A stretch of DNA of 64,000 bases, from contig CAIYWC010000097.1 in NCBI GenBank assembly GCA_903929795.1, positions 1-64,000 on the forward strand. Direction: 5' to 3'. Made by a program: the position numbers and the translations under genes. This DNA is from an uncultured Myxococcales bacterium (GTDB taxonomy: Bacteria; Myxococcota_A; UBA9042). Position 1 is the stretch's first letter. Every line of letters starts with the position of its first letter. Below, one piece after another: positions 48,844-63,319 of this stretch. Under the pieces are notes generated by a model. That model saw only the letters and a list, made by a program, of their open reading frames with translations, did not search any database and was not told the DNA's origin.

Positions 48844-51800
48844 TCAGTTGTGGCAGCACATCACGCCGAGGATCCACGGGTCGGTGCCCGAGTTGCGCAC
48901 GCACGTCTGGTTCATCGCGTCGATGCGGTAGTTGTTGCTGATGCAGCTGACGCCGTAGTTGGTGATTTTGCCTTGGCAAAGCGCGCCTACGCCGGCCGCG
49001 TCGTTGGTGTCGGTCGTGTTGGTGCACGCGTGGCAAGTGCCGTTGTCGTTCGCGGCGTTGAGCGACCAGCAGCCCTGCTGGAAGGCGTCCGCTTGGGTGA
49101 TGGATTGCTCGAGGACCTGGTCGGCCGCGCTGGAGTTGCAGACGTGGAAGTTGACGCCGCAGAGCAACTGTGCCGAGCCCGCGCCTGAGCTGGACGCGAT
49201 CGAGCCATACCAATTGCCGTTGCATTGCGCGATGTTCGGGTAGCGCGTCTTGTCCATCGTGCCGGCGCGCACGCCGCTGGCGCAGCTGGTGTCCTCGATC
49301 TGGCAGGTGCTGGAGCAGCCGTCGCCGCTGACCTTGTTGCCATCGTCGCACTGCTCGCCCAAGGCGGCTTGCACCACGCCGTCACCGCAGACGCCCAGCT
49401 TGCACACGCCGGTGAAGCAGAGGTTGACCGCGCCGCAGCTGGTCTTGTCCGGCAGCGCGATGTGCTGGCAGCCGATGCCGAGCACGCAGCTGTCCGTCGT
49501 GCACGCGTTGCTGTCGTCGCAGTTGATGGCGGGCGGCGCGCAGACGCCACCGGCGCAGACGTCGGGGCCGGTGCAGAGGTTGCCGTCGTTGCAGGGCGCA
49601 TTGTTGGCCGTGTGGCTGCAGCCCGTGAGCCCGTTGCAGGAGTCGTCCGTGCAGGCGTTGCTGTCGTTGCAGTTCAGCGCGCCGCCGGGCGTGCAGATGC
49701 CGTTGTTGCAGTAGTCGCCGCTGGTGCAGACGGAGCCGTCCGCGTCGCAGCTTGCGCCGTTGGCGCCGGCGCCGTTGAAGACGCACACGCCGGTCAGCGT
49801 GTTGCAGGAATCCACGGTGCACGCGTTGCCGTCGTTGCACACGGTCGCCGGCCCGGAGACGCAGGCGCCGCCGGTGCACTTGTCGCCGTTGGTGCAGGCG
49901 TTCCCGTCGCTGCAGGCGCTGGTGTTGGCCGTGTGGGTGCAGCCGGTCGTCGGGTTGCAGGCGTCGTTGGTGCAGGCGTTGCCGTCGTCGCAGTTGATTG
50001 CGGCGCCCGCCACGCAGCTCGTGCCGGTGCAGAGGTCCGGGTTGGTGCAGACACTGCCGTCGGCGTCGCAGAGGCCGCCGGCGTTTTGCGCGACGTAGCT
50101 GCAGGCGCCGGTCGCGGGCGTGCACGTGTTCTTGCGGCAGGTGTTGTCGCCCGCGGCGCTGCAGGTCACGATGGTCGCCGGATTGACCTTGCACTGGTAG
50201 GGCAGGGCGCTGACGTCGCAAAAGAGCGTGCCGTTGCAGAAGTTGCCGTCTTCCTGGCTGGCGCAATCCGCCGTGGTCTTGCAGCCACAGTTGTTGCTGC
50301 CGGACGTGCAGACGCCGCCGCTGCAGACGTCGCCGATGGTGCACGGGTTGCCGTCGTCGCAGGAGAGGATATTGTTGCTGTGCGTGCAGCCGGCGACCGG
50401 GTCGCAGGCGTCCGTGGTGCAGACCTTGCCGTCGTCGCAGAGCACCGTGGGCACCACAACGTTGCCCTTGCAGACGCCCGCGCCGCAGACGTCGCCGGTG
50501 GTGCAGGCGTTGCCGTCGTTGCACGCCAGGTTGTTGACGGCGAACACGCAGCCGGTGCCCGGGTTGCAACTGTCAGTCGTGCACAAGTTATTGTCGTTAC
50601 AGGTGATTCCGGTGCCGGCGCACGCCTTGGCGGCGCAGATGTCGCCGCTGGTGCAAGCGTTGCCATCGTCGCAAATCGCGGTGTTGGCGGTGTTCAGACA
50701 GCCGGTGGCGGAGCTGCACGAGTCCGTGGTGCACGGGTTCGCGTCGTTGCAGTTCAGCGTGCCGGTCGAGCTGCACAGGCCGCCCGAGCACGTGTCGCCC
50801 GTCGTGCACGCGTTGCCATCGTTGCACGGCAGGGCGTTCGCGGTGTATTTGCAGCCGGTGGCCGCGACGCAGGCGTCGTCGGTGCAGGTGTTGCCGTCGT
50901 TGCAGATGATCGCGGTGCCGACGCACGCGCCGGCGCTGCACGTGTCCGCAGAGGTGCAGGCGTTGCCGTCGTCGCAGCTCGCGCTCGAGTTTGTGAACAC
51001 GCAGTTTCCGGTCGTCACGTCGCAGGAATCGGTCGTGCATGGGTTCGAGTCGTTGCAATTGCGCACGCCGCCTGGCACGCAGCCCGAGGCGTTGCAGATG
51101 TCGCCGACGGTGCACGGGTTGTTGTCGGTGCACGGGCTGGTGTTGGCGGTGTGCGTGCAGCCCGTCGCGGGGTTGCAGCTGTCGTCGGTGCAGACATTGT
51201 TGTCGTTGCAGTTGACCTGCGGGCCGGGCAAGCACACGCCGGCGTTGCACGCGTCGCCCACCGAGCAGACCGAGTTGTCGGCGTTGCACGGCGCGTTTTG
51301 GTTCTGCGCGACGTAGCTGCACAAGCCGGTGGACGGCGCGCACGTGTCGACGGTGCAGATGCCGTTGCCGCTCGTGTCGCACGTGACGATTGTCGCCGGG
51401 TTGACCTTGCAGTTGTACGGCAGCGCGGACGTGTCGCAAAACAGCGTGCCGTTGCAGAAGTTGCCGTCTTCCTGGGCCGCGCAATCGCTGTTTTGCGTGC
51501 AACCACAGGAATTCGCACCGCTTGTGCAGACGCCGGCGGCGCAGACGTCGCCGACGGTGCAGCCATTGCCATCGCTGCACGCGTTTGTGTTGTTGACGTG
51601 CGTGCAGCCGCTCGCCGGGTTGCACGCGTCGTTGGTGCAGGGGTTGCCGTCGTCGCAGAACGTCGCGACCACGACCGCCGTGCCGCTGCAGGCGCCGCCC
51701 GCGCAGGCGTCGTTGGTCGTGCAGGCGTTGCCGTCGTTGCAAGACAGCGCGTTGTTTGTGTGCGCGCAGCCGGTCGCCGGCGAGCACGAATCGCTGGTGC

Positions 51801-54800
51801 AAATGTTGCTGTCATCGCAGTTGACGCTGACGCCGCTGCAGACGCCGCCCGCGCACTTGTCGTTCTGACTACAGGCGTTGCCGTCGTTGCAGCTCAGGGC
51901 GTTGTTGGCAAAGACGCAGGCGCCGGTTGCGGCATTGCAGGAGTCGTCCGTGCATGGGTTGCCGTCGTTGCAAACGGCGACTGCGCCGGGCTTGCACGCG
52001 CCGGTGGCGCAGATGTCGCCGACGGTGCACGCGTTGCCGTCGGTGCACGGCGACGTGTTGTTGCTGTGCTGGCAGCCCAGCGTCGCGCTGCAGGAGTCGT
52101 TGGTGCACGGGTTGCTGTCGTCGCAGTTCAGGCTGGCGCCAGCCTTGCAGACACCAGCGGTACAGATGTCCGGCGCGGTGCAGACGCTGTTGTCGGCGTT
52201 GCACGGACCGGCTTCGTTCTGGTTGATGTAGCTGCACTTGCCGGTCCCGGTCGCGCACGTGTTTTTGGTGCAAACCGTGTCGGCGCTGGCGTCGCAGGTC
52301 ACGATCGTCGCCGGGTTGACCTTGCAGCTGTACGGCAGCGCGGACTTGTCGCAAAACAGCGTGCCGTCGCAGAAGTTGCCATTTTCCTGGCTGGCGCAAT
52401 CAGCCGTCACCGCGCAGCCGCAGGTGTTGGCGCCGCTCTTGCACGCGCCTGCGCTGCACGCGTCGCCGACGGTGCAGGGGTTGCCGTCGTCGCACGTCAC
52501 CGCGTTGTTGGTGTGCGCGCAGCCGGTGGCGGGGACGCAGCTCTCGGTCGTGCACGGGTTGCCGTCGTCGCACAGCACCGCGGCGCTGATGGCGGTGCCG
52601 GCGCAGGCGCCGCTGGAGCAGAGATCGTTTTGCGTGCAGGCGTTGTTGTCGTTGCAGCTCAAGGTGTTGACCGCGTTGACGCAGCCTTTCTTGGGGTCGC
52701 AGCTGTCGGTCGTGCAGACGTTGTTGTCGTTGCAGTTCAGGGCGGTGCCGCCGCACACGCCGCTGGCGCAGACGTCATTGGCGCTGCACGCATTGCCGTC
52801 GTCGCAGCTGAGCGTGTTGTTGGCGAACAGACAGTTGCCGGTGGCCTTGTCGCAGGAATCGCTGGTGCATGCGTTGCCGTCCACGCAGACCTTGATTGCG
52901 CCGGGGACACAGCCGGCCGAGACGCACTGGTCGCCGACGGTGCATGCGTTGCCATCGGTGCACGGGTTGCTGTTGGCGGTGTGCGTGCAGCCGGCGATCT
53001 TGTCACAGGCGTCGTTGGTGCATGGGTTGGCGTCGTCGCAGTTCAACGCCGCGCCGGCCGAGCAGATGCCGCCCACGCACGTGTCGTTGGTCGTGCACAC
53101 GCTGCCGTCCGCATCGCACGGCTTGCCGCTGTTTTGACTCTGGTAACTGCACACGCCGGTCGCGGTCGCGCACGTGTTCTTGGTGCAGGTCGTGTCCGCG
53201 CTGGCGTCGCAGCTGACGACCGTCTTCGGGTTCACCTTGCAGTTGTATGGCAGCGCGCTCTTGTCGCAAAACAGCGTGCCGTTGCAGAAGTTGCCATCTT
53301 CCTGGGCGGCGCAATCCGCGTCCTGCGCGCAGCCGCACGTGTTCGTACCGCTGACGCACTTGCCGGCGGCGCAGGCGTCCCCGGTTGTGCAACTGTTGCC
53401 GTCGTCGCACGGCGCGGTGTTCGTGGCGTGGCTGCAGCCGGTCGACGGGTTGCAGCCGTCGGTCGTGCACGGGTTGGCGTCGTCGCATTGGACGGCCGCG
53501 CTGACCGCGGTGCCTTTGCACACGCCGCCGCCGCAGATGTCGTTGCTCGTGCAAGCGTTGCTGTCGTCGCAGGTGACCGTGTTGTTCGTGTGCACGCAGC
53601 CGCTGGCAGACGCGCACGAGTCGTTGGTGCACGGATTGCCGTCGTCGCAGCTGATGCCCACGCCGGAGCAGACGCCGTTGTTGCAGGTGTCGGTCTGGCT
53701 GCACGCGTTGCCGTCGTTGCAGGGCAGCGCGTTGTTGGCGAAGACGCACTTGCCGCTTGCGGGATCGCAGCTGTCCGTGGTGCAGGGGTTGCTGTCGTTG
53801 CAAACGGTGCCGGAGCCGGCCACGCAGGCGTTCTGGCTGCAGGTGTCGCCGACGGTGCACGGATTCCCGTCGCTGCACGGGCTGGCATTGGCGACGTGGA
53901 CGCAGCCGGTCTTCGCGTTGCAGCTGTCGTCGCTGCAGGGGTTGCCGTCGTCGCAAATGAGCGCGGCGCCTTGGGCGCACTCACCCGATTTGCACGCATC
54001 GTTCGTGGTGCACACGCTGCCGTCCGCGTCGCACGGTTGGCCTTCGTTCACCGCGTTGTTGCTGCACTTTCCGACCTGGGTGTTGCACTGGTTGTGCAAG
54101 CAGGCGGTGTCCGCCGTCGTGTCGCAGGTCACGATCGTCTTGGGATTGACCTGGCACTTGTACGGTGGCGCGCTCTTGTCGCAAAACAGCGTGCCGTTGC
54201 ACAGGTTTCCGTCTTCCTGGCTGGCACAATCGGCGTCGGACGTGCAGCCGCAGGTGTTGGTGCCGCTGACGCACACGCCCGCGGCGCACGCGTCGCCGGT
54301 GCTGCAGGGGTTGCCGTCGTCGCAGGTGTTGCTGTTGGGCGTGTGCGTGCAGCCGACGGTCGGATCGCACGCCTCCGTTGTGCACGGGTTGCCGTCGTCG
54401 CAGACCACGTTGGCGCTGACGGTTTGGCCCTTGCACGCGCCGCCGCCGCAGAGATCGCCGGTCGTGCAGGCGTTGCCGTCGTCGCACGGGACGCTGTTCG
54501 GCGTGTTCACGCAGCTCTTGGTCGGGTCGCAGGAATCCGACGTGCACGGGTTCTTGTCGTCGCAGATTGCGGACGTGCCCGAGCAGACGCCGTTCGCGCA
54601 CGTGTCGTTCAGCGAGCAGGCGTTGCCGTCGTCGCACGGCAGCGTGTTCTTGACATACGTGCACTTGCCGCTGCCTTGGTCGCACGCGTCGTCGGTGCAC
54701 GGGTTGCCGTCGTCGCAATCGGTCAGCGGTCCGGCGGCGCACGCGGCGTCCTTGCAGACATCGCCCACGGTGCAGGCGTTGCCGTCGCTGCACGCGGCGG

Positions 54801-56454
54801 ACGACGGCGCGAACACGCAGCCGTTCTTCGGGTCGCAGCTGTCGGTGGTGCATGGATTCTTGTCGTCGCAATTCAGCAGCGGGCCGGGCACGCAGGTGCC
54901 GCCTGTGCAGGTGTCGGTCGTGGTGCAGACGGTGCCGTCGGCGTCACAGCCCAGGCCTTCGTTCACCGGCATGTAGAGGCACTTGCCGGTCGGTTTGTCG
55001 CACTGGTTTTGCGAGCACGCCGTGTCGGCGCCGCCGTCGCATGTGATGACGGTGACCGGGTTCACCTTGCACAGCCACTGCGCGCCGCTCTGGTCGCAAA
55101 ACAGTGTGCCGTTGCACAGGTTGTTGTCGTCGTACGCCGCGCAGTCCAGATCGTTGGTGCACGCGCAGGACGACGCGCCGGAGTTGCAAATGCCGTTGGC
55201 GCACGTGTCGCCGGTCGTGCACGAGTTGCCGTCTTCGCACGGCAGCGTGTTGGCGGTCCAGGCGCAGCCGGTGATGGGGTCGCAGGATTCGGTGGTGCAC
55301 GGGTTGCTGTCGTCGCAGATCTGCGCGGCGCTCAACGCTTGGCCGACGCAGGCGCCACCGGTGCACGTGTCGTTGCTCGTACACGGGTTTTTGTCGTTGC
55401 ACGGCAGGGACGTCGGTGTGTAGATGCAGCCCTTGAGCGGGTCGCACGCGTCGGTCGTGCAAATCGAGCCGTCGTCGCAGGAAAAACCGGTGCCGCTGCA
55501 CGCGCCGCCGGCGCAGATGTCGTCCTTGGAGCACGCGTTGCCGTCGTCGCACGGCGCACTGTTGAACGTTGCGGTGCAGTCGCCGGCCAGATCGCAGCCG
55601 TCGGCCGTGCAGGCGTTGCCGTCGTCGCAGACCTTGCCGGGGCCGGGCGTGCAGACGGTGCCGACGCACGCGTCGCCGATCGTGCAGGAGTTGCCGTCGT
55701 CGCAAGCGGAGCCGTCCATGACCGCGTGTACACAGCCGGCGATCGCGTCGCAAGTATCCGCCGTGCATGGGTTTTTGTCGTCGCAGTCCAAGTTGCCGGC
55801 CGGCTTGCAGGTGCCAAAGACGCAAGCGTCGCCCACGGTGCATGCGTTGCCGTCGTCGCAGGTGCCGGCGTTAATCAGCGCATGTTGGCAGCCGTGGTTC
55901 AAATCGCACTGGTCCGCGCTGCACGGGTTGCCGTCGTCGCAGTTCTGCGCGACGCCGCCCTGGCAGGTGCCGTCGGTGCAGGATTGGCCAGTCGTGCAGG
56001 CATCGCCGTCTTCGCAAGTCGCGCCGTTGGGCAGCGGCGTGGCCTGGCAGATGTTCTCGACGCAGCTGCTGGGCGTGCACGGCGTGGCCAGTGGCAGGCA
56101 GTCTTCCGAGGTCTGGCACGTGGTCGTCACCGCGTCGGCGCTATCCGCGGCATCGCCGTCGGCCGACAAGGTGTCGAACAGCGGATTCACGTCGCCATCC
56201 AAGTACTTGGCGTCGTATTCGATGGTCGTGGCGTCCTTGGCCAGCTGGACGTCCTGCGGCAGCTTGGACACGTCATCGCCGCTGTTGGCGTCCGGATCGA
56301 ACACCGGCACGACCGTCGTGTTGTCGCTGCACGCCGCCATACCGGCCAGCAAGAGCGCGAGCAAGCCGCTGCGCATCAGCCAGTTCGACCCGAAGCGGTC
56401 GGCGGTTTGGACGAGCAGTGTGCGGTTCGAGACGGTGCAACAAGACGGATTCAT
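48844..56454 (-). CDS. Giant Cys-rich repeat lipoprotein (CDDGNxCTxxxC repeats, DUF4215-like unit, unique C-terminal domain)
   Basis: Lipobox-like LLALLLAGMAAC; dozens of CDDGNPCTxDxCDPxxGCxHxxN units; six NGTLFCD cassettes; CDDGNKVSGDGCSSTCQIED near the C-terminus. Confidence 0.85.
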   Translation of the reverse strand: MNPSCCTVSNRTLLVQTADRFGSNWLMRSGLLALLLAGMAACSDNTTVVPVFDPDANSGDDVSKLPQDVQLAKDATTIEYDAKYLDGDVNPLFDTLSADGDAADSADAVTTTCQTSEDCLPLATPCTPSSCVENICQATPLPNGATCEDGDACTTGQSCTDGTCQGGVAQNCDDGNPCSADQCDLNHGCQHALINAGTCDDGNACTVGDACVFGTCKPAGNLDCDDKNPCTADTCDAIAGCVHAVMDGSACDDGNSCTIGDACVGTVCTPGPGKVCDDGNACTADGCDLAGDCTATFNSAPCDDGNACSKDDICAGGACSGTGFSCDDGSICTTDACDPLKGCIYTPTSLPCNDKNPCTSNDTCTGGACVGQALSAAQICDDSNPCTTESCDPITGCAWTANTLPCEDGNSCTTGDTCANGICNSGASSCACTNDLDCAAYDDNNLCNGTLFCDQSGAQWLCKVNPVTVITCDGGADTACSQNQCDKPTGKCLYMPVNEGLGCDADGTVCTTTDTCTGGTCVPGPLLNCDDKNPCTTDSCDPKNGCVFAPSSAACSDGNACTVGDVCKDAACAAGPLTDCDDGNPCTDDACDQGSGKCTYVKNTLPCDDGNACSLNDTCANGVCSGTSAICDDKNPCTSDSCDPTKSCVNTPNSVPCDDGNACTTGDLCGGGACKGQTVSANVVCDDGNPCTTEACDPTVGCTHTPNSNTCDDGNPCSTGDACAAGVCVSGTNTCGCTSDADCASQEDGNLCNGTLFCDKSAPPYKCQVNPKTIVTCDTTADTACLHNQCNTQVGKCSNNAVNEGQPCDADGSVCTTNDACKSGECAQGAALICDDGNPCSDDSCNAKTGCVHVANASPCSDGNPCTVGDTCSQNACVAGSGTVCNDSNPCTTDSCDPASGKCVFANNALPCNDGNACSQTDTCNNGVCSGVGISCDDGNPCTNDSCASASGCVHTNNTVTCDDSNACTSNDICGGGVCKGTAVSAAVQCDDANPCTTDGCNPSTGCSHATNTAPCDDGNSCTTGDACAAGKCVSGTNTCGCAQDADCAAQEDGNFCNGTLFCDKSALPYNCKVNPKTVVSCDASADTTCTKNTCATATGVCSYQSQNSGKPCDADGSVCTTNDTCVGGICSAGAALNCDDANPCTNDACDKIAGCTHTANSNPCTDGNACTVGDQCVSAGCVPGAIKVCVDGNACTSDSCDKATGNCLFANNTLSCDDGNACSANDVCASGVCGGTALNCNDNNVCTTDSCDPKKGCVNAVNTLSCNDNNACTQNDLCSSGACAGTAISAAVLCDDGNPCTTESCVPATGCAHTNNAVTCDDGNPCTVGDACSAGACKSGANTCGCAVTADCASQENGNFCDGTLFCDKSALPYSCKVNPATIVTCDASADTVCTKNTCATGTGKCSYINQNEAGPCNADNSVCTAPDICTAGVCKAGASLNCDDSNPCTNDSCSATLGCQHSNNTSPCTDGNACTVGDICATGACKPGAVAVCNDGNPCTDDSCNAATGACVFANNALSCNDGNACSQNDKCAGGVCSGVSVNCDDSNICTSDSCSPATGCAHTNNALSCNDGNACTTNDACAGGACSGTAVVVATFCDDGNPCTNDACNPASGCTHVNNTNACSDGNGCTVGDVCAAGVCTSGANSCGCTQNSDCAAQEDGNFCNGTLFCDTSALPYNCKVNPATIVTCDTSGNGICTVDTCAPSTGLCSYVAQNQNAPCNADNSVCSVGDACNAGVCLPGPQVNCNDNNVCTDDSCNPATGCTHTANTSPCTDNNPCTVGDICNASGCVPGGVRNCNDSNPCTTDSCDVTTGNCVFTNSSASCDDGNACTSADTCSAGACVGTAIICNDGNTCTDDACVAATGCKYTANALPCNDGNACTTGDTCSGGLCSSTGTLNCNDANPCTTDSCSSATGCLNTANTAICDDGNACTSGDICAAKACAGTGITCNDNNLCTTDSCNPGTGCVFAVNNLACNDGNACTTGDVCGAGVCKGNVVVPTVLCDDGKVCTTDACDPVAGCTHSNNILSCDDGNPCTIGDVCSGGVCTSGSNNCGCKTTADCASQEDGNFCNGTLFCDVSALPYQCKVNPATIVTCSAAGDNTCRKNTCTPATGACSYVAQNAGGLCDADGSVCTNPDLCTGTSCVAGAAINCDDGNACTNDACNPTTGCTHTANTSACSDGNACTNGDKCTGGACVSGPATVCNDGNACTVDSCNTLTGVCVFNGAGANGASCDADGSVCTSGDYCNNGICTPGGALNCNDSNACTDDSCNGLTGCSHTANNAPCNDGNLCTGPDVCAGGVCAPPAINCDDSNACTTDSCVLGIGCQHIALPDKTSCGAVNLCFTGVCKLGVCGDGVVQAALGEQCDDGNKVSGDGCSSTCQIEDTSCASGVRAGTMDKTRYPNIAQCNGNWYGSIASSSGAGSAQLLCGVNFHVCNSSAADQVLEQSITQADAFQQGCWSLNAANDNGTCHACTNTTDTNDAAGVGALCQGKITNYGVSCISNNYRIDAMNQTCVRNSGTDPWILGVMCCHN
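50226..55104 (-). repeat. Higher-order tandem repeat inside the giant gene: 915-bp period, one unit of 1218 bp
   Basis: The marker GCG/TGTGCCGTTGCA-like encoding NGTLFCD occurs at 50226, 51444, 52359, 53274, 54189 and 55104; spacings 1218, 915, 915, 915, 915. Confidence 0.85.
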
Positions 56455-56585: not shown

Positions 56586-57764
56586 TCATTTCAAGACCGC
56601 GGTGTGGCGCAAATCGTACGTGATATTCTTCTGGTGCGCTTCGATCGTCCCGCCGCCGATCTCCAGCAATTTCGCGTCGCGCCACAGCCGTTCCACGTCG
56701 TATTCGCCGACGTAGCCGTAGCCGCCCAGCGCCTGGATCGCCCGGTCGGCGACGTCTTTGGCCATCGTCGCGCAGTACAGCTTCACGCCGTCGGAATCCA
56801 CGCGGTTGCCGTGGCTCTCCAAATCCATGCGCGCCGCGGTCACGTACGTGTACGCGCGACCCGCCATCCATTGCGCATAGGAATCGCCGATGTAGCGCTG
56901 AATCTGCCCGAAATTGCGCAGCGATTGGCCAAATGCGTGCCGCTCGCCGCAGTACCGGTTCATCACTTCTACGCAGCGTCGGGCGATGCCCAGGCTCATC
57001 GCCGCGAGCGTCAGGCGTTCAATTTCCAGATTGCGCATCATGTGTTTGGTCGACTCGCCCTCGTTGCCGATGCGGTTGACGACCGGCACGCGGCAGTCGT
57101 CAAACACCAGCTCCGCCGTCGCCGACGCGCGCATGCCCAACTTGTCGTGGATCTTCTGGCCAAGGCGAAAGCCCGGCATGCCCTTCTCGACCAAAAAACT
57201 GCTGATCTGTTTGCCTTTTTCACCACCCGTGCGCGCGTAGACCAGAAAGCAGTCGCCCAGCTCCGTGTTGCTGATGGCGCCGTTGGTGATCCACATTTTG
57301 GCGCCGTTGAGGACATAAAAATCCCCGTCGCGACGCGCAGTTGTGCTCATGGCCAGCGCGTCGGTGCCAGCGTGCGGCTCGCTCATGCCCATGCCGGCGA
57401 TCCATTCGCCGGAAATCACCTTGGGCAGGACGCGCCGCCGCTGGTTGTCGTTGGCGTTGACATTGAAATTATTGACAAACAGCATCGCGTGCGCCAGATA
57501 GCTGAGCGTGAACGCCGGGTCCACGGCGCTCAGTTCTTCGTGGGCAATCACCGCCGCCGTCGCGTCCATGCCCGCGCCGCCCCAGCGCTCCGGCACGGTC
57601 AGGCCCAGCAGCCCGAGCGGGCCCAGCTTGCGAAACAGCGGCACGTTGAACGTCTCCGTGCGGTCAGCTTCCCGCGCCTGCGGCTGCAGTTCGCGCTCGG
57701 CAAAATCGCGGACAAGCTCGCGCAGCGCCAAGTGTTCTTCGGTCGGATTGTAGATGTCGTGCAT
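56586..57764 (-). CDS. Acyl-CoA dehydrogenase
   Basis: GMGMSEPHAGTDALAMSTTARRDGDFYVLNGAKMWITNG; YCGERHAFGQSLRNFGQIQRYIGD; ALGGYGYVGEYDVERLWRDAKLLEIGGGT. Confidence 0.95.
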   Translation of the reverse strand: MHDIYNPTEEHLALRELVRDFAERELQPQAREADRTETFNVPLFRKLGPLGLLGLTVPERWGGAGMDATAAVIAHEELSAVDPAFTLSYLAHAMLFVNNFNVNANDNQRRRVLPKVISGEWIAGMGMSEPHAGTDALAMSTTARRDGDFYVLNGAKMWITNGAISNTELGDCFLVYARTGGEKGKQISSFLVEKGMPGFRLGQKIHDKLGMRASATAELVFDDCRVPVVNRIGNEGESTKHMMRNLEIERLTLAAMSLGIARRCVEVMNRYCGERHAFGQSLRNFGQIQRYIGDSYAQWMAGRAYTYVTAARMDLESHGNRVDSDGVKLYCATMAKDVADRAIQALGGYGYVGEYDVERLWRDAKLLEIGGGTIEAHQKNITYDLRHTAVLK

Positions 57765-57796: not shown

Positions 57797-58843
57797 TCAC
57801 GTTCGTGGCGCACTGGCCCGGGTCAGCCGGTCGGCGATCGCCGGCCACAAGCCGTCGGTCCGCGTCACGGGTTCTGCGTAAAGCGTGCCGGTCGCCGTGT
57901 CCATTTCGCGCAGGCAGGCGAAGAGCCGCTGCGCCGCCGTCACGTCGCTGCCGTCCGGGCTCAGCAGCACGGGCTTGCACCCCAGCGCCCGCGTGGCCTC
58001 GCCGGCGCCGGTCACGACCAGCACGACGTCCCCAGGCTGCAACGCGGCGCGCGCTTTTTCGCCGAGATCCTGGACGGACGCGGGCAGCAGCCGCAGCGGT
58101 TGGGTCGGCGCGTAGTGGCTGGCCAGCAACCCAGGCGACGGCAGCGCCAGCGGCGAGATTTCGGTAATCATCACAGGATGTTGGCTCACGGCCGCGATGA
58201 CATCGGCCGTTACGCCGCCCGGCCGCAGCAGCGCGCAGCGGCCGTCGGGCTGCACGGCGACGACAGTCGATTCCACGCCCACGGCACACGGGCCGCCATC
58301 GACAATCCAGGCAATCCGCTCGCCCAGCTCGGCCAGCACGTGCGCGGCCGTCGTCGGGCTGATGCGGCCAAAGCGGTTCGCGCTCGGCGCTGCCAGCGGC
58401 TGGCCCAGCTGCTTCAGGATCTGCTGCGCCATCGGGTGCGCCGGCATCCGCACCGCCACGCTGTCCAGTCCCGCCGTGCACAAGTCCGGCACCGCGCGCG
58501 CCCGCGGCAGGACCAGCGTCAGCGGGCCGGGCCAGAGCGCGTCGACCAGCCGCTGCGCCGTCTGCCGCGCCAACGGCGTCAGCCGCGCCCCATCGACCAG
58601 CTGCGCCTCGGCCAGCGCCTCCAGGCGCCGACCGCGCGGACTCGGCGCCACATGTGCGATCAGCGGGTCGAATGTGGGCCGGTCCTTGGCGGCAAAAATC
58701 TGCGCCAGCGCGGCCGGATCCAGCGCCAGCCCTGCCAGCCCGTACACCGTTTCCGTCGGAATGGCGACCAGTTCACCGCCGCGCAACGCAGCGACGGCGC
58801 GCGCAATCTCCGCGGGCGTGTTGTGCAGAACGCGCGCGGTCAT
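57797..58843 (-). CDS. Sua5/YciO/YrdC family threonylcarbamoyl-AMP synthase
   Basis: GGELVAIPTETVYGLAGLALDP; KDRPTFDPLIAHV; AAPSANRFGRISPTTAAHVLAELG; long C-terminal Sua5 domain. Confidence 0.93.
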   Translation of the reverse strand: MTARVLHNTPAEIARAVAALRGGELVAIPTETVYGLAGLALDPAALAQIFAAKDRPTFDPLIAHVAPSPRGRRLEALAEAQLVDGARLTPLARQTAQRLVDALWPGPLTLVLPRARAVPDLCTAGLDSVAVRMPAHPMAQQILKQLGQPLAAPSANRFGRISPTTAAHVLAELGERIAWIVDGGPCAVGVESTVVAVQPDGRCALLRPGGVTADVIAAVSQHPVMITEISPLALPSPGLLASHYAPTQPLRLLPASVQDLGEKARAALQPGDVVLVVTGAGEATRALGCKPVLLSPDGSDVTAAQRLFACLREMDTATGTLYAEPVTRTDGLWPAIADRLTRASAPRT

Positions 58844-60492: not shown

Positions 60493-62259
60493 CTAGGCCT
60501 TGTCCAGGGTGAACGGCAGCAAAATCGGAAATTCCGCAGCGCGCGGCGCCGTCGGCATCGGCAGCGGCCACTCGTGCCAGACGCCCTCGCGCCGCAGGGC
60601 CAGGCCGACGCCGGGCAGCACGCGCAGCGCCTCCAAATCGCCCATCTCGGGCAGCGACGCCAGCGCGGCCGCCAGCTCGTCCCCCGCCACTTGGCTGCGC
60701 CGCACGGTAATGGCCCGGATGTCCACGACTTCGTCGCGCGAGATGGACCGCGCCTGCAGCGAAGCACACGTGCCGTCGGCAAAAAGCAGAATCGGTTCAG
60801 CGGTGTAGGTCTGCTGCCGCGCCGTCCACGCTGGATTGTGCACCGCCAGATCGGCTAGGAGGGCGTCCACCAGCGCCTGCGACGCCGGGCAGTCAAACCG
60901 GCACGGGAGGTGGCGCAGCGGCGTGCGTGCCTCCTCGCCCAGCAGCCCGGGCAGCGACGTCAGGCGCGCGTCAAAATGCCGGGTCCGCAGCGCAGCGCGC
61001 AAAATCGCGATCGCGTTGTCGGTGTGCCGCACGTGCTCGACGATCTCCGCGTGGGCGTCCAGGAACGCCTCAATGCAGCACGTCGGATAGCCGTATTGTG
61101 CGCCCAGCCGCCGATGCGTTGCCGCAATCGATTGCCAGTGCGCGCGCTGCTCCCCCAGGGCCAGCGCCGGCGGCCGCTGCAGGTTCGCCAGCTCATCGCG
61201 CAGGCAGGCCGCCGCGTCCTCCGCAGTCACCGCGACGACCGTGAGCACGTGTTGGCCATCGCCGTCAGCCCGGATCATGCCGCCTGCGCCCGCATCGACA
61301 CTCGCCGCGGAACGCACGTGCCACCCACGCGCTGAAAAAGCCTGTTGGTACGCTGCGATTTCGGCCTGCGGTAGGAACAACCGCCACGCGCGCCGCAGCC
61401 CGAGCGCCAGTCCGCGCGCTTCCACGCAGTCCGGATCGACGTGCGCGTCTTCGTCGTGCTGCTGGGTAGTCGGCAGGCGCCGCCAGGCCTGCCAGTTCGG
61501 TCCCGGTCCGCCGGGCCGTTCGAGCAGCGCGGCGGGCACACCCGCGCAGCCATCCGGGCGATCCGGCCGCGCCCGCAGCGGACAGTCGTCGCACGCGGGC
61601 ACGTAGCGCGCCGCCGCTTGGCTGCGTTCACCGGCCGTCGCCGGCTCGATCTCAAAGCCCGCCAGACATGCCGGCCACACGCCGGACCGCCGCAGCGTCA
61701 CATCAGGCGGCAGCTGGCGCGGCCACGCCGCCGAGACGGCGTCCAGCGCGGGTGCCTCGGCCGGCTCCAGATGGGGCAACGCGATGACCACGATTTCCGC
61801 GCCCAGGCCGCTCAGCTCGGTCAGCTCGCCCAGCCCGGCCACGGCGCGTCCAGCCAGCCGCCACCGGAGCCGCACCGCCAGCCCGTGCGCGCCCGCCTGC
61901 GCGATCGCGTCCCGCAGCCCTGTGGCTTCTTGCGTATCGCCGGTCCAGGCCAGCGCGGCGCTCGATGTCGGCGCCCGCACGACCCACTCCACGGCATGGG
62001 CCCGACCCTGCGCAAGCGCCTGAAACAGCGCCGCATCGGCCCGCTGGATGCGCACCACGACCTGCGCGCCCGCCTGGGCCAGCAGCTCCAACGCGTCGCG
62101 CAAACGCGGCAGCGGCGTGTCGCCATCGACCAGCACGGTCACGTGCGGCTCGGTCAGCCGCGCGCGCAGCGCGGCCGCATCATTCGCGAGCACGGTCTGC
62201 AGCGGCCAGATTTGGCGATTCGCCGAATGGCGTTTCTGAGGCAAGGGCGTGGCGACCAA
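60493..62259 (-). CDS. Uncharacterised protein: barrel-like N-terminus with Cys cluster plus DUF483-like C-terminus
   Basis: YVPACDDCPLRARPDRPDGCAG; QYGYPTCCIEAFLDAH; RHLPCRFDCPASQALVDALL; TTG start. Confidence 0.6.
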   Translation of the reverse strand: MVATPLPQKRHSANRQIWPLQTVLANDAAALRARLTEPHVTVLVDGDTPLPRLRDALELLAQAGAQVVVRIQRADAALFQALAQGRAHAVEWVVRAPTSSAALAWTGDTQEATGLRDAIAQAGAHGLAVRLRWRLAGRAVAGLGELTELSGLGAEIVVIALPHLEPAEAPALDAVSAAWPRQLPPDVTLRRSGVWPACLAGFEIEPATAGERSQAAARYVPACDDCPLRARPDRPDGCAGVPAALLERPGGPGPNWQAWRRLPTTQQHDEDAHVDPDCVEARGLALGLRRAWRLFLPQAEIAAYQQAFSARGWHVRSAASVDAGAGGMIRADGDGQHVLTVVAVTAEDAAACLRDELANLQRPPALALGEQRAHWQSIAATHRRLGAQYGYPTCCIEAFLDAHAEIVEHVRHTDNAIAILRAALRTRHFDARLTSLPGLLGEEARTPLRHLPCRFDCPASQALVDALLADLAVHNPAWTARQQTYTAEPILLFADGTCASLQARSISRDEVVDIRAITVRRSQVAGDELAAALASLPEMGDLEALRVLPGVGLALRREGVWHEWPLPMPTAPRAAEFPILLPFTLDKA

Positions 62260-62262
62260 CGT

Positions 62263-63306
62263 CTACTTCACCCGAACCCAGTTGCGCGCCGGAAAGCCGC
62301 GGCTCGCCGGCGGTGGCTGCACGGACAGCACGTAGCTCGCGCGCCGGTTGCGGGCTTCATCGACGCCGTCGGCGGTCGGCACCTTCAACGCCGTCTCGCC
62401 AAAGCCCTGCGACTGGATTGGCACCTTGATGCCATGGGCAGAAAACCACGTGGCAATCGCGTGCGCACGCTTGCGTGACAGGTCCAGGTTGTCCGCCGCC
62501 TGGCCGACGGTGTCGGTGTAGCCGCCGATGTACAGTTCGATTTGCAGCACGCCTGCCACGGCCTTGAGCTGCTGCTGGATGCGCTCCAGCGGCTCGGTCA
62601 GCTTGGGCTCTTCGGTGGGCCGGATGTCCCATTTGCCCGACTCAAAAATCACGTCCTGGTGCGGGATGTCGACGAACGTCACCGACTCGATGCCGCTCCA
62701 GTAATTGGCCTGATCGTAGGCGCGAAGCTGAAATTGCCCAACGACTTCATCGGGTTTTTGCTCCCACGTCACCGTCAGCGGTGTGCCGGGCGCCTCGCCC
62801 GTGAACGTCTTGCTGACGTTGGCGATCGGCTTGCCGTCGTCGCCCATCACGTCCAGCTCCAGCTTGCCGGCGGGCTCGGTCAGGCGCACGGTGATCTTGC
62901 GGCCCGCCTCGTCGATGTCCGGCGGCGCGATCTGGATGCGCGGCGGCTCGCCGACGCGCGTGTCGAACTCCACGTCAAAATTGGCGAATTTCTCCTTGCC
63001 GGCCTGGCCGGACAGCTTGCAGGTGTAGTGGAAAACGCCTTTGACGACCGGCAGCGGTACGCGCTTCTCGGCGCCAGCGCGCAAGCCCGCGACGCTGAAG
63101 TTGACGTCCTGGCCGTCGGACCGCTTGCACGCGAACTGCACGGCGCCAAACGCGCGGGACGGCTTGAAGCCGAGCCACGGGTGATCCTTGGGCAATTGCG
63201 CCGTGCCGTGCACCGAAAAGCCAAGCTCGTCCGCACTAACCTGGGCGTGCGCGGAAGTGGCGAAAAATACGGTGAAAACGAGCGAGAACGGTGCGATCCA
63301 ACGCAT
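62263..63306 (-). CDS. OmpA family protein
   Basis: Signal peptide MRWIAPFSLVFTVFFATSAHA; C-terminal OmpA-like LYIGGYTDTVGQAADNLDLSRKRAHAIATWFSAHGI...GFGETALKV...EARNRRASYVL. Confidence 0.88.
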   Translation of the reverse strand: MRWIAPFSLVFTVFFATSAHAQVSADELGFSVHGTAQLPKDHPWLGFKPSRAFGAVQFACKRSDGQDVNFSVAGLRAGAEKRVPLPVVKGVFHYTCKLSGQAGKEKFANFDVEFDTRVGEPPRIQIAPPDIDEAGRKITVRLTEPAGKLELDVMGDDGKPIANVSKTFTGEAPGTPLTVTWEQKPDEVVGQFQLRAYDQANYWSGIESVTFVDIPHQDVIFESGKWDIRPTEEPKLTEPLERIQQQLKAVAGVLQIELYIGGYTDTVGQAADNLDLSRKRAHAIATWFSAHGIKVPIQSQGFGETALKVPTADGVDEARNRRASYVLSVQPPPASRGFPARNWVRVK

Positions 63307-63319
63307 GGCAGCCTCCACG

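Follow-up and report, generated by a model that had tools for sequence, protein, structure and literature searches.

The window, a 64,000-nucleotide stretch of a 6.35-Mb Myxococcota assembly, encodes a 588-amino-acid protein (P0001) that is made of known parts in a new arrangement: a barrel traceable by profile comparison to a radical SAM protein but lacking the CxxxCxxC motif, joined to a C-terminal domain of the DUF483 type. The initial annotation had presented this protein as the co-transcribed partner of an adjacent MNIO; two points go beyond it, namely, the link of P0001 to an OmpA-domain gene and the cell envelope and the association of DUF483 with radical SAM enzymes. We tentatively propose that P0001 belongs to an envelope-linked modification pathway to which the MNIO was added within a single genus.

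The coordinates of the features discussed are given in Table 1; an alternative GTG start for P0001 lies at 62193. The reading frame begins 3 nt past the stop codon of the OmpA-domain gene, and the ATG of the MNIO gene follows 9 nt past its end, as initially annotated; this gap measures 9, 9, 9, and 3 nt in the remaining four species of its genus, here designated g1. Compared with four orthologs from the same genus (66 to 77% identity), the gene has a dN/dS of approximately 0.2 to 0.3 and is therefore regarded as real and under selection. Both halves are under purifying selection, with weaker constraint on the N-terminal half.

Two sets of cysteines stand out in the protein: Cys198 (WPAC) with Cys223, Cys226, and Cys238 (CDDC...GCAG) on the N-terminal side and Cys394 and Cys395 (YGYPTCC) with Cys453 and Cys457 (HLPCRFDC) on the C-terminal side. 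These motifs are not chance occurrences, because the C-terminal four are invariant in 67 sequences and the N-terminal four are invariant in the 13 homologs that possess the barrel (alignment A2). CxxxCxxC, reported missing at the outset, is absent both from this frame and from all 32 homologous frames collected by similarity to P0001.

TABLE 1 Features of the P0001 locus, in window coordinates
Feature	Coordinates	Strand	Basis
Pseudo-radical SAM/DUF483-like gene (P0001), 588 amino acids, TTG start	60493-62259	minus	Orthologs, purifying selection
Radical SAM-derived barrel plus twitch region without the CxxxCxxC segment (residues 36-250)	61510-62154	minus	hhalign, shuffles, AlphaFold2 (AF2)
LVDGDTPL, aligned to radical SAM LTGGEPTL (GGE strand); start of radical SAM homology	62110-62133	minus	hhalign
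Auxiliary-cluster-type Cys198, Cys223, Cys226, Cys238 (WPxC ... CxxC ... CxG)	61546-61668	minus	Alignment A2; aligned to radical SAM twitch cysteines
DUF483-like C-terminal domain (residues 275-588)	60496-61437	minus	Alignments A1 and A7; AF2
Cys394-Cys395 of GYPxCC, invariant	61075-61080	minus	Alignments
HLPCRFDC (His450, Cys453, Cys457), both cysteines invariant	60889-60912	minus	Alignments
OmpA-domain exported protein, immediate upstream neighbor	62263-63318	minus	PF00691, 44.5 bits
MNIO fused to DUF2063/HvfC-like region (P0002), 547 amino acids	58840-60483	minus	PF05114, 324 bits
Sua5/YrdC threonylcarbamoyl-AMP synthase, overlapping the MNIO stop	57797-58843	minus	Profile match; also adjoins the MNIO gene in G005 and G007
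Acyl-CoA dehydrogenase-like gene, last of the genus-conserved block	56586-57764	minus	Assigned from sequence by eye

The N-terminal half had been described as a possible radical SAM-derived barrel ending in auxiliary-type cysteines, and profile-profile comparison bears this out. A profile of 13 homologous N termini aligned by hhalign with a profile of eight radical SAM/twitch domains, most of them from DUF483-linked radical SAM genes, at 96.9% probability (E = 1.3e-10, 210 columns), with the alignment running from the GGE strand (LVDGDTPL versus LTGGEPTL) through the twitch cysteines. The score of 68.5 compares with a maximum of 16.7 after column shuffling; the barrel alone scored 36.7 (shuffles, ≤16.3), and the twitch region alone matched at 82% probability. 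A second set of homologs, belonging to a different family within the class, matched at 94.9%, while TIM-barrel controls failed to match (dihydrouridine synthase [Dus], 0.1%; MNIO, 5%). The AlphaFold2 model of this half is an alpha/beta barrel. Since the alignment starts at the GGE strand, the missing piece comprises the first strand together with the CxxxCxxC loop. As judged by these comparisons, the N-terminal half descends from a radical SAM/twitch protein, has lost this segment, and retains the four auxiliary-cluster cysteines.

P0001 therefore resembles radical SAM/twitch proteins (PF04055) in its auxiliary-cluster cysteines and in the part of its barrel that starts at the GGE strand, and differs from them in lacking CxxxCxxC, the first barrel segment, and any match to PF04055; no Pfam family scored above its cutoff in a scan of the N-terminal half, and a sub-threshold match of the barrel to SIP (15.3 bits; cutoff, 26.3) was set aside. 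Foldseek searches with the barrel model returned only insignificant PDB matches, a mix of radical SAM proteins (HydE and biotin synthase) and other TIM barrels. By its name, the NCBIfam model TIGR04347, a pseudo-SAM/SPASM protein of haloarchaea, offers a precedent for radical SAM family proteins without the SAM site; however, P0001 does not match this model, and no DUF483 domain is recorded for TIGR04347 here. A literature search on dead radical SAM proteins returned nothing.

The C-terminal half scores 13.4 bits against the Pfam DUF483 model (PF04467; E = 0.077, residues 383 to 416), below the curated cutoff of 25 bits. Its homology to DUF483 is nevertheless clear at the sequence level, because a homologous paralog (G004:C428, locus L033), which matches P0001 at E = 1.6e-27 and is 28% identical to it in alignment A1, passes that cutoff with 26.2 bits. 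P0001 and the family have the GYPxCC and HxPCxxDC motifs in common; P0001 differs in its sub-cutoff score and in carrying a radical SAM-derived N-terminal half. Across 67 diverse C-domain sequences, the invariant residues are the four cysteines (two in GYPxCC and two in PCxxxC), two glycines, and one proline. The original assignment of a DUF483-type C terminus is upheld.

AlphaFold2 modeled the DUF483-like domain with a pLDDT of 90.5 and a pTM of 0.90. Because Foldseek searches of the PDB with this model returned nothing at an E value below 0.001, the predicted fold is either new or too remote from solved structures to be matched; 2guk and NleE were rejected as structural relatives (E values of 0.02 to 0.05, insignificant). 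A Foldseek search of a viral structure library gave no match, and sequence searches of solved structures with the whole family and the C-domain as queries gave nothing credible. The structural searches proposed at the outset for both halves thus yielded no significant PDB relative, and the case for radical SAM descent comes instead from profile-profile comparison. Just 7 papers in the open literature mention DUF483, a family of no known function.

In the C-domain tree, the 19 family members form one clade (support, 99/99). Forms without the radical SAM-derived half occur at several places inside this clade, in two strongly supported groups and in G015, so that at least three lineages of this OmpA-linked clade lack it; in G012, the barrel is kept and the cysteines are gone. 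This distribution reads as repeated loss of the radical SAM-derived half, with weak support for the deep branches. Because that half is dispensable in several lineages, the DUF483-like core is the essential part, and any companion role must rest on it.

DUF483-like domains also occur with radical SAM enzymes that appear intact. L110 encodes an intact radical SAM domain followed by a DUF483-like domain in a single frame, and L075 and L200 encode the reverse order, with both domains exceeding their Pfam cutoffs. A radical SAM gene with CxxxCxxC lies within 5 kb in 23 of 43 distant DUF483-like loci; these 23 come from Myxococcota and from records titled Desulfonema, Paracoccus, and Actinomycetota. 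From the density of PF04055 matches in the source genome (65 in 6.35 Mb, or one per ~98 kb), approximately 0.1 would be expected per 10 kb around such a locus; the corresponding binomial tail of ~1e-12 is a rough guide only, because it assumes independent loci, which these are not in every case, and the radical SAM density of one genome. These fusions and neighborhoods show that DUF483 domains travel with predicted active radical SAM enzymes, either fused in one order or the other or encoded next to them.

Several of these loci are distinctive. In the source genome, a carbamoyltransferase is fused to a DUF483-like domain (L036:8157-11780, minus strand) and neighbors a protein with two radical SAM domains and an oxidoreductase domain as well as a SPASM radical SAM protein. 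A DUF483-like gene of Paracoccus yeei (L115:6899-9961) lies between the gene for a HVNSGPPGFVNGGGHANFD-repeat protein and a radical SAM/SPASM maturase-like gene, an arrangement that looks like a RiPP cluster. In Polyangia, Kofleriaceae, and Archangium relatives, three to seven radical SAM genes are densely grouped around the DUF483-like gene (L076, L092, L098, L104, L116, and L121). Proteins of ~950 to 1650 amino acids (L194, L195, L199, L203, L204, L205, and L042) combine a DUF483-like domain with a B12-type-radical-SAM-like region in which the cysteines are spaced approximately C-x(25-29)-C-x2-C rather than CxxxCxxC; their matches to radical SAM models are very weak, and they are possibly a noncanonical or inactive radical SAM group.

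The most persistent neighbor of the P0001 family is the OmpA-domain gene, which lies directly upstream on the same strand in 17 of 18 assessable genomes, including those of g1 (the exception is G006). In a second family of the class, f5, the pseudo-radical SAM/DUF483 gene instead follows ExbD, TonB, and peptidase-MA genes in each of the five long contigs analyzed (L074, L085, L088, L094, and L096). Both of these lasting settings are, by the predicted nature of the neighboring products, cell-envelope settings. MNIO adjacency is limited to g1, where all five species share the order OmpA, DUF483-like, MNIO/HvfC, Sua5, dehydrogenase; the flanking genes differ in some of them. Elsewhere, the MNIO gene is on a contig separate from that of the DUF483-like gene (nine genomes possessing both), ~3.4 kb away and convergent (G005), or not found (four genomes that encode the DUF483-like protein, including two incomplete assemblies), and it is absent from all 43 distant DUF483-like loci. 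MNIO and Sua5 form a pair in their own right in G005 and G007. Most simply, this pattern is explained by the joining, in the ancestor of g1, of two older pairs, OmpA-DUF483 and MNIO/HvfC-Sua5. The MNIO-DUF483 pairing suggested initially is thus conserved within g1 and does not extend beyond it. The initial annotation would have been abandoned had there been no recurrent pairing in other genomes and an N-terminal fold unrelated to radical SAM barrels; recurrent pairing is largely missing, and the N-terminal fold is related.

P0002 itself scores just above the cutoff of the BufB model (NF050167; 312.5 bits versus 310), and its fused DUF2063 region scores 53.4 bits and falls below the cutoff of the HvfC model (33 versus 142 bits). 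It resembles the bufferin BufB and HvfB/HvfC systems in that the MNIO is joined to a DUF2063-type partner. The residues targeted by MNIOs are mostly cysteines, DUF2063 proteins serve as MNIO partners, and bufferin precursors undergo Sec export (PMC12452194); the same survey of the MNIO landscape makes no mention of DUF483. Unlike in BufB systems, no DUF2282 precursor was detected in genomes G000 to G012, the source genome included, and the conserved block has no room for a precursor gene, since all intergenic gaps from OmpA to Sua5 are 10 nt or less. In G020, the MNIO is encoded separately, and its neighbors are an HvfC-like gene and a gene for a 100-amino-acid exported, precursor-like peptide with cysteine repeats (KGDKHSCKGK; L156:5961-8144, minus strand). 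A search for cysteine-repeat precursors modeled on this peptide gave no match in a set that excluded G020 and hence held no positive control. Downstream of the block, at 48844-56454 on the minus strand, lies the gene for a lipoprotein-like, cysteine-rich repeat protein of 2536 amino acids (359 cysteines); its position is shared by G003 and G001, and similar proteins adjoin MNIO genes in G016 (L158) and G021 (L159). This protein is a candidate MNIO substrate, but with dozens of such genes in the genome (196 segment matches), its position near the MNIO may be due to chance.

Our preferred reading, held at slightly less than even confidence, is that the dead radical SAM/DUF483 fusion acts as a noncatalytic, cysteine-ligand-rich companion in an envelope-linked modification pathway and that the MNIO is a genus-level addition. 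Lacking CxxxCxxC, which is required to hold the SAM cluster, P0001 would be unable to cleave SAM. It would act in the cytoplasm and bind Fe-S clusters, or some other metal, at both cysteine sites. It might hold a substrate thiol or relay electrons as a different enzyme carries out the modification of an exported, cysteine-containing peptide or protein; PapB offers a precedent, with a substrate thiol bound by an auxiliary cluster and intermolecular return of electrons (PMC10470005). In g1, where the OmpA-DUF483 pair is joined to the MNIO/HvfC-Sua5 pair in one codirectional block, the modifying enzyme is perhaps the co-transcribed MNIO, whose superfamily mostly oxidizes cysteines, and a link between P0001 and the MNIO in this genus is plausible. 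A bolder version, which we consider unlikely, would make DUF483 a general metal-binding companion of radical SAM enzymes and the g1 pair a system of two components that modifies cysteines of an envelope protein, with the radical SAM relic as substrate-thiol holder for a nonheme iron oxidase.

It is quite possible, if somewhat doubtful, that the MNIO neighborhood is instead a historical accident, two old pairs having been rearranged together in the g1 ancestor, and that P0001 has an OmpA- or envelope-related role and none with the MNIO. Each pair does exist apart from the other, in the genomes described above; in G005, the two lie ~1.5 kb apart and convergent, and the nine genomes with the MNIO on another contig fit the same account. 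Yet the five-gene block has persisted in every g1 species, with gaps of only 3 to 9 nt between the DUF483-like and MNIO genes, while the flanks have changed in some. Metal handling, with P0001 using its CC/CxxxC and CxxC/C sites to store iron (or copper) or to supply it to the MNIO or to an envelope metallophore, would suit the two invariant cysteine sets, the need of MNIOs for several irons, and the chelation of copper by MNIO-modified bufferins (PMC12452194). It is improbable, given that across phyla DUF483 accompanies radical SAM enzymes and none of the 43 distant loci has an MNIO.

We give equally little credence to an enzymatic role for P0001 in which the auxiliary or DUF483 site carries out a chemistry of its own, independent of a SAM radical. 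Purifying selection on both halves speaks for such a role, as does the occurrence of the DUF483-like domain alone in many genomes; however, cysteines aside, there is no invariant catalytic residue pattern, and the domain shuffles onto active enzymes (radical SAM and carbamoyltransferase) as an accessory would. The view of P0001 as a decaying, functionless radical SAM pseudogene accounts for the lost CxxxCxxC and for relatives in which the barrel is wholly gone, but we reject it as hardly credible on the strength of the dN/dS values, the invariant cysteines, and a full-length frame intact in five species of g1.

DUF483 is a family without an assigned function. In several phyla, fusions and neighborhoods now connect it to the chemistry of radical SAM enzymes, and its four invariant cysteines are singled out as targets for testing. 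Its presence in one operon with an MNIO in a single genus points to a two-gene experiment, and a dead radical SAM domain that keeps its auxiliary-cluster ligands offers a natural case for studying roles of auxiliary clusters outside SAM chemistry.
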